Positions 7,685 to 8,358 of a stretch of 64,000 nucleotides of DNA are shown here, piece by piece. Position numbers and translations under genes: made by a program. A model generated the notes under the pieces. That model had not been told where the DNA came from. It was given only the letters and a program-made list of their open reading frames with translations, and made no database searches. The stretch is from Bacteroidales bacterium (GTDB lineage: Bacteria; Bacteroidota; Bacteroidia; Bacteroidales; Tenuifilaceae). Every line of letters begins with the position of its first letter. The stretch's first letter is position 1. Location of the stretch: positions 1 to 64,000 of the forward strand of contig DSBV01000109.1 of NCBI GenBank assembly GCA_011045955.1, read 5' to 3'.

Positions 7685-7692
7685 TAAATTTG
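7685..7692 (+). promoter_or_regulatory. Bacteroidetes -7 box (TAAATTTG) for first tRNA-Leu transcript
   Basis: TAnnTTTG consensus 55 nt before the first hairpin repeat. Confidence 0.4.
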
Positions 7693-7746
7693 CATCCGCA
7701 ATTTTGACAAGATCTTTTAGGTGTTGTAGATTCTAACTAAGTAAAT

Positions 7747-7956
7747 GCCCAGATGGCGGAACCGAGTGAAACGAGCTCCCGCCATCCACTGGCAACCAAA
7801 CATTACAGTTGGTTCAAAGTTCTTTTAGGTATTGCAAAGCATAATCTAAATGCCCAGATGGCGGAACCGAGTGAAACGAGCTCCCGCCATCCACTGGCAA
7901 CCAAACATTACAGTTGGTTCAAGGTTCTTTTAGGTATTGCAAAACATAATCTAAAT
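7747..7956 (+). repeat. Two tandem 105-bp units, each starting with the first 15 nt of the downstream tRNA-Leu and continuing into its inverted complement
   Basis: GCCCAGATGGCGGAA at 7747, 7852 and 7957 (exact 105-bp period); GATGGCGG...CCGCCATC stem in the first two. Confidence 0.9.
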
Positions 7957-8043
7957 GCCCAGATGGCGGAATTGGTAGACGCGCTAGTTTCAGGGACTAG
8001 TATCAGCAATGGTGTGCAGGTTCGAGTCCTGTTCTGGGCACCA
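7957..8043 (+). tRNA. tRNA-Leu (anticodon CAG)
   Basis: Acceptor GCCCAGA/TCTGGGC, anticodon stem CTAGT-TTCAGGG-ACTAG, variable arm, GGTTCGAGTCC T-arm, encoded CCA. Confidence 0.95.
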
Positions 8044-8096: not shown

Positions 8097-8104
8097 TATT
8101 TTTG
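8097..8104 (+). promoter_or_regulatory. Bacteroidetes -7 box (TATTTTTG) before second hairpin/tRNA-Leu
   Basis: TAnnTTTG consensus; -33 element not convincing. Confidence 0.3.
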
Positions 8105-8132
8105 CAGCGATTTTTGAATAATGATACTTAAT

Positions 8133-8238
8133 GCCCAGGTGGTGGAACCGAGTGGAACGAGTTCCCACCACCCATGGTTAAAAGAATAAGAAAGTTAGAG
8201 TCAAAAGAGACACTAACAATTGAATAATGATACTAGAC
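8133..8238 (+). repeat. Single 106-bp unit with tRNA-Leu 5' end plus inverted complement hairpin
   Basis: GCCCAGGTGGTGGAAC-CGAGTGGAACGA-GTTCCCACCACC; GAATAATGATACT precedes both this unit and the real tRNA. Confidence 0.88.
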
Positions 8239-8322
8239 GCCCAGGTGGTGGAATTGGTAGACACACCAGCTTGAGGGGCTGGCGCCGTCAAAAGCGTGCA
8301 AGTTCGAGTCTTGTCCTGGGCA
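8239..8322 (+). tRNA. tRNA-Leu (anticodon GAG), CCA not encoded
   Basis: Acceptor GCCCAGG/CCTGGGC, anticodon stem CCAGC-TTGAGGG-GCTGG, T-arm AGTTCGAGTCT. Confidence 0.95.
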
Positions 8323-8329
8323 CCCGAAT

Positions 8330-8358
8330 AAACCTTGTGAAAGTCACAAGGTTTTTTT
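8330..8358 (+). terminator. Rho-independent terminator after tRNA-Leu
   Basis: AACCTTGTGAAAGTCACAAGGTTTTTTT. Confidence 0.75.

Follow-up and report, generated by a model that had tools for sequence, protein, structure and literature searches.

A tRNA-mimicking hairpin in the leaders of tRNA-Leu genes of scattered Bacteroidales: an apparently undescribed feature under constraint

Results

Hairpin Units Upstream of tRNA-Leu(CAG) and tRNA-Leu(GAG)

The window (the whole 64-kb stretch of DNA that was analyzed) contains a tRNA-Leu(CAG) gene (7957–8043) and a tRNA-Leu(GAG) gene (8239–8324), both on the forward strand, as are all features of the window described below, and both detected by ARAGORN and as Rfam RF00005. 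The tRNA-Leu(CAG) gene is preceded by two tandem units of 105 bp (7742–7846, with a hairpin at 7747–7786, and 7847–7951, with a hairpin at 7852–7891) that were identical at 103 of 105 positions, and the tRNA-Leu(GAG) gene by a single unit of 106 bp, in agreement with a unit length of about 105–106 bp proposed from the sequence alone. The order within each unit was the same: an exact copy of nt 1–15 of the following tRNA, a CCGAGTGRAACGAG core, and the complement of about nt 6–13, so that a hairpin, H1, forms.

H1 of the GAG unit (GCCCAGGTGGTGGAACCGAGTGGAACGAGTTCCCACCACC) was located at 8133–8172. Its 5′ part (8133–8147) matched nt 1–15 of tRNA-Leu(GAG) exactly, its apical core CGAGTGGAACGAG (8149–8161) is kept in related H1s, and its stem pairs nt 6–13 with nt 33–40 (8138–8145 with 8165–8172) below an apical CGAG...CGAG. 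The sequence-only reading, which described a hairpin that copies the tRNA 5′ end and closes on its complement 106 bp upstream of the gene, was thus confirmed in these points (hairpin start 8133, tRNA start 8239), and so was the presence of GAATAATGATACT before both the hairpin (8116–8128) and the tRNA (8222–8234), the second copy lying immediately 5′ of the gene. That reading regarded the GAG hairpin and its tRNA as a second, independent pair with the same layout; the layout is indeed the same, but the two hairpins are not independent, as they have the CCGAGTGRAACGAG core in common and showed 85% identity over 48 nt. The spacers 3′ of the two hairpins were unrelated to each other.

The -7-like box TATTTTTG noted at 8097 was found at 8097–8104 and may serve the GAG unit as a Bacteroidetes -7 promoter box; for the CAG operon, a candidate -7 box, TAAATTTG, is located at 7685–7692. 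Downstream of tRNA-Leu(GAG), an inverted repeat followed by a T run (8327–8357) is a likely terminator. The folding energy of the GAG H1 alone was -18.2 kcal/mol (z = -2.35 compared to shuffled sequences), and z-scores of -3.42 and -4.05 were obtained for the GAG leader (8107–8238) and the CAG hairpin, respectively. A spacer hairpin, H2 (GTTAG...CTAAC; 8194–8217), was present in GAG units of the genus; it was not universal, and its mean z of -1.3 across units did not support it as a general second hairpin. An Rfam scan of the window returned only tRNA above the gathering score, and no known family matching H1.

Specificity Within the Source Genome

A search of the 2.77-Mb source assembly for the H1 core, with the reversed pattern as control, detected three exact cores, all in the window and all at the two tRNA-Leu genes. 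Matches with one or two mismatches (12 forward and 9 reverse) were not in excess of the control (10 and 13). Among the 41 distinct tRNA genes of the assembly, 0.36 chance copies of a 12-nt tRNA 5′ end are expected within 400 bp upstream at up to two mismatches, and an exact copy was obtained in none of 200 shuffles. Exact upstream copies were seen for the two Leu genes of the window, tRNA-Met and tRNA-Thr(GGT). Those at tRNA-Thr(GGT) and at a second Leu(GAG) gene were rejected as leader units, each being a neighboring intact tRNA gene. As to 5′-end copies 100–110 bp upstream of the remaining tRNA genes, for which the sequence-only reading had suggested a search, only tRNA-Met was comparable, with a different copy 89 bp upstream. 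The assembly has another Leu(CAG)-Leu(GAG) pair (G000:C100; loci L059 and L106) that lacks hairpins; its alleles are like those of other genera, and it is possibly on a contaminant contig.

These results bear on the explanation that H1 is a dispersed palindromic repeat of REP type that stands before tRNA genes by chance. H1 is a palindromic stem-loop as REP and BIME sequences are. Two genomes of one other family of the class contain 57 and 12 dispersed copies of TTTCGASGAASGAGAAA, whose apical motif is that of H1; joined to different arms, this motif forms a dispersed repeat in some Bacteroidota. Many copies at non-tRNA loci, which were expected of such a repeat, were absent in the source genome, however, where the core is confined to tRNA-Leu and weaker matches equal the control. 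Besides, the arms of H1 are tRNA-derived, and all order-wide matches below 1e-4 (see next section) are upstream of tRNA-Leu or, in one case, at a contig end. A REP-type origin is considered very improbable. In two other genomes (loci L309 and L310 in G438 and G434), dispersed TGTCATTTCGASGAASGAGAAATC repeats were seen on both sides of a small GIY-YIG gene in a REP-like arrangement.

Distribution of H1 Units in Related Genomes

H1 units were present at one or both Leu genes in five of the six other genomes of the genus; the sixth, 78% complete, showed no tRNA-Leu match. Units of other genera in the family follow this design with a shorter core, CCGAGGAACGAG. An apical core of the form CGA...GAG is conserved among the H1 hairpins. 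Nineteen hairpins were used to build a covariance model, which was run on 393 genomes of the order and then on 396 genomes phylum-wide (the source genome included). Convincing matches (E < 1e-4) were found in 11 of the 393 genomes, belonging to six Bacteroidales families, and in all 11 the hairpin was located upstream of tRNA-Leu or, in G223, beside a contig end. Four weaker matches in the order were not near tRNA genes, and no H1 match was found in the 395 other genomes of the phylum-wide search.

The tRNA genes behind H1 were all tRNA-Leu, with anticodons CAG, GAG, CAA and TAA. The number of tandem units per locus varied from one to seven, the seven-unit array being found in G056. Unit lengths clustered near 105 bp (98–107 bp), with units of 53–54 bp in two families and of 66–69 bp in one, including the G056 array. 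H1 was absent at the same gene in some close relatives (G004 at CAG, G008, G014 and G019). Distal units of some arrays (G001 and G006 at GAG; G058) were degenerate and by eye seem to have kept a short stem and lost the acceptor copy. In G022 (locus L102), a tRNA-Leu(CAG) copy carries a 20-nt palindrome, CCTGTCTGCCGACAGGCAGG, in its D loop and is otherwise intact to the 3′ end.

Constraint on H1

Base pairs were counted in 29 distinct H1 sequences, with 500 shuffles and a slid register as controls. Stem positions were paired in 95.5% of cases, compared to 88.3% in the shuffles and at most 75% in the slid register. The stem covaries, with 28 two-sided changes compared to 9.2 in shuffles and none of the 500 shuffles as high, although the sequence of the 5′ arm varies with that of the local tRNA, so that these changes also reflect which tRNA was copied and covariation by itself does not tell selection apart from re-copying.

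In almost all tRNA-proximal units, the first 15 nt of H1 were identical to those of the local tRNA, and the copy was shown to track substitutions in the tRNA (GCCCAA in G013, GCCTTGG in G058, and GCCCGAG in G327). The copy was exact even in units where the preceding 16-nt leader had ceased to match (4–6 of 16). In our judgment, recombination could probably not maintain an identity of only 15 nt efficiently, which argues for selection for identity to the tRNA.

A stronger argument for constraint than covariation came from the spacers of 16 units from four genera (g1, g4, g5, and g8) of one family. Between genera, H1 identity was 0.83 (about 0.8), whereas spacer identity was 0.60, equal to that of shuffled spacers (0.60); CAG and GAG spacers of one genome likewise showed 0.59 compared to 0.57 when shuffled. 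Despite spacers at random identity, all 16 units were 103–107 bp long. Retention of H1, of the tRNA copy and of unit length while the spacers diverged points to constraint on H1. Judged from these comparisons, H1 is conserved too well for an accident, and is neither a fresh duplication nor a REP-type dispersed repeat in the source genome.

Neutral template switching during replication was considered as an alternative, in which part of the region comprising the leader and the 5′ end of the tRNA is duplicated in tandem, with a fold-back copy at the junction, and slippage follows. The near identity of the adjacent CAG copies fits such a process, as does the minimal G058 unit, in which only a short core and an inverted copy lie between direct repeats at a 53-bp step. 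Against it, the same core recurs across families without a local template, the stem covaries, and H1, the identity of the mimic and unit length outlast a randomized spacer. This explanation, already disfavored by the comparison of spacers with H1, is regarded as improbable.

GIY-YIG Genes and Split Pseudo-tRNAs

Small single-domain GIY-YIG genes adjoin tRNA genes of many kinds across the family. A tRNA gene lay no more than 1.5 kb from 26 of 44 small GIY-YIG genes but from none of five UvrC genes (about 2 expected by chance, by our estimate), and in the phylum sample 9 of 23 small compared to none of six large GIY-YIG genes were near tRNA. At such loci, a tRNA 5′ half and a palindrome lie upstream, and a palindrome and 3′ half downstream, often in tandem. 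Loci with GIY-YIG genes and split pseudo-tRNAs in Bacteroidota include G000:C12:1-502 (L061, L185), L163–L205, and L286–L299, and it is possible that they form a class of tRNA-targeting elements. In the source genome, tRNA-Val shows the split-tRNA GIY-YIG arrangement and tRNA-Met is accompanied by pseudo-tRNA units. At tRNA-Met, pseudo-tRNAs in which the anticodon arm is replaced by TCCCGAT...ATCGGGA occur both upstream and downstream (L011/L154 in G000:C17, L147 in G006, and L148/L149 in G026); in G026, contigs end inside the array.

H1 units may be gene-less units, non-autonomous or remnant, of a mobile element that targets tRNA genes, an explanation that we take as a serious possibility and which these loci favor. 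The element would insert into the D loop of tRNA-Leu, a new leader and 5′ end would restore the gene, and the hairpin would cap the split half; tandem copies would arise by repeated insertion or by repair after cutting, with a small GIY-YIG nuclease as the likely driver. In layout, H1 units are similar to the upstream half of tRNA-associated GIY-YIG elements, and they likewise place a partial tRNA copy and a palindrome beside an intact tRNA. In addition, a GIY-YIG gene in two genomes of another family is bordered on both sides by the H1 apical motif, there joined to other arms, and the CAG unit of G020 has a GAG-type 3′ arm, which suggests movement between genes. A precedent is the phage enzyme SegB, a free-standing GIY-YIG homing endonuclease that cuts inside tRNA genes and promotes tandem amplification (PMC13096335).

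Several results stand against a purely mobile unit. No GIY-YIG gene was found in or beside the unit at any examined H1 locus, including the Leu loci of the window, and no nuclease gene tied to Leu units was found in 27 genomes of the family and six H1 genomes of other families; in the latter six, none of 24 GIY-YIG matches was near any tRNA. H1-like hairpins were not enriched at GIY-YIG loci (7 of 81 with small ORFs compared to 3 of 23 with large ones), and old units with saturated spacers retain H1 and its length. No downstream tRNA-Leu fragment, as a 3′ half with a palindrome, was found in the window.

Discussion

The H1 unit is a real and constrained feature of tRNA-Leu leaders in scattered Bacteroidales, and is apparently undescribed. 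The reading that we prefer, with a probability of roughly 0.4, is that H1 forms a structured module which mimics the tRNA, is transcribed as part of the tRNA-Leu 5′ leader, has a cis-acting RNA role and originated by insertion. It is favored over a purely mobile unit, and the two are compatible as present role and origin: after nt 15, in the D loop, an insertion would have split or duplicated the 5′ part of tRNA-Leu, and the module would now be kept by selection on the RNA. A conserved structure with compensatory changes, as expected of a cis-acting leader RNA, is consistent with this reading, as is the layout of the GAG unit with a promoter-like box 5′ and a terminator-like repeat 3′. The occurrence in 11 of 393 genomes, with 0 to 7 copies, looks more like an element than like a conserved regulator.

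As to how such a leader module could act, the copy and the real 5′ strand of the tRNA may compete for pairing with the 3′ acceptor strand, with the 3′ arm of the hairpin either retaining the copy or changing partner to the real 5′ strand. This competition would set the share of the precursor that is folded and processed into tRNA-Leu, as a throttle or an insulator. Equilibrium folding of the window precursors showed a difference of 0.5–0.8 kcal/mol between the state with H1 and the native acceptor and the alternative in which the tRNA 3′ strand is paired with the copy. Removal of H1 restored native acceptor pairing and shuffling of the 3′ arm lowered it further, the effect of the 3′ arm relative to a shuffled arm being slight (0.24 to 0.78 of 7 pairs on average). 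The small energy difference and these effects make strand competition physically plausible in the model, which favors the copy over the real 5′ strand; it uses a linear multiloop without tRNA tertiary contacts or distance cost, and part of the predicted competition is an artifact of this. Co-transcriptional folding should favor formation of H1 first. The more specific proposal of a hitherto undescribed cis-acting pre-tRNA switch, in which tandem hairpins with a strand-exchangeable copy of the 5′ end set the yield of tRNA-Leu and are kept by selection in scattered Bacteroidales, is considered doubtful.

H1 units share features with several known systems. At the E. coli tyrT locus, tandem repeats that include the 3′ end of tRNA-Tyr lie downstream of the gene and in one transcript with it (rtT RNA). 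H1 units are likewise tandem repeats beside a tRNA gene that each contain part of that tRNA, but they carry the 5′ end, lie upstream, fold into hairpins and are associated with tRNA-Leu. REP and BIME palindromes are short hairpin repeats, sometimes paired, that occur with RAYT transposases; H1 is also a short hairpin and its apical motif is dispersed, bordering a nuclease gene, in one other family, whereas H1 itself occurs only in tRNA-Leu leaders, with arms that copy the tRNA. Leader RNA switches, the T-box among them, are structured leader RNAs involving tRNA sequence, as H1 would be, although H1 precedes a tRNA gene and not an amino-acid gene. The co-location of GIY-YIG genes with tRNA genes in the family is similar to that of SegB, which differs in being a phage enzyme for which the sections consulted describe no palindromic pseudo-tRNA (PMC13096335), and in that the examined H1 loci have no nuclease gene.

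No described family matching H1 was found in the literature, nor was a description of small nuclease elements targeting tRNA genes in Bacteroidota. A search covering few subscription papers returned nothing on GIY-YIG genes with REP repeats, on GIY-YIG and tRNA genes in Flavobacterium, or on GIY-YIG, tRNA genes and homing in Bacteroidetes.

As far as its sequence and conservation indicate, H1 probably either affects the making of its tRNA or marks an element that invades tRNA genes. If the mobile explanation is true, H1 would be a sign of small nuclease elements directed at the tRNA genes of Bacteroidota. The supply of a tRNA is usually viewed as set by promoters and gene copies; if the leader acts through its own copy of the tRNA 5′ end, this would be a new control of one tRNA family from within the precursor.
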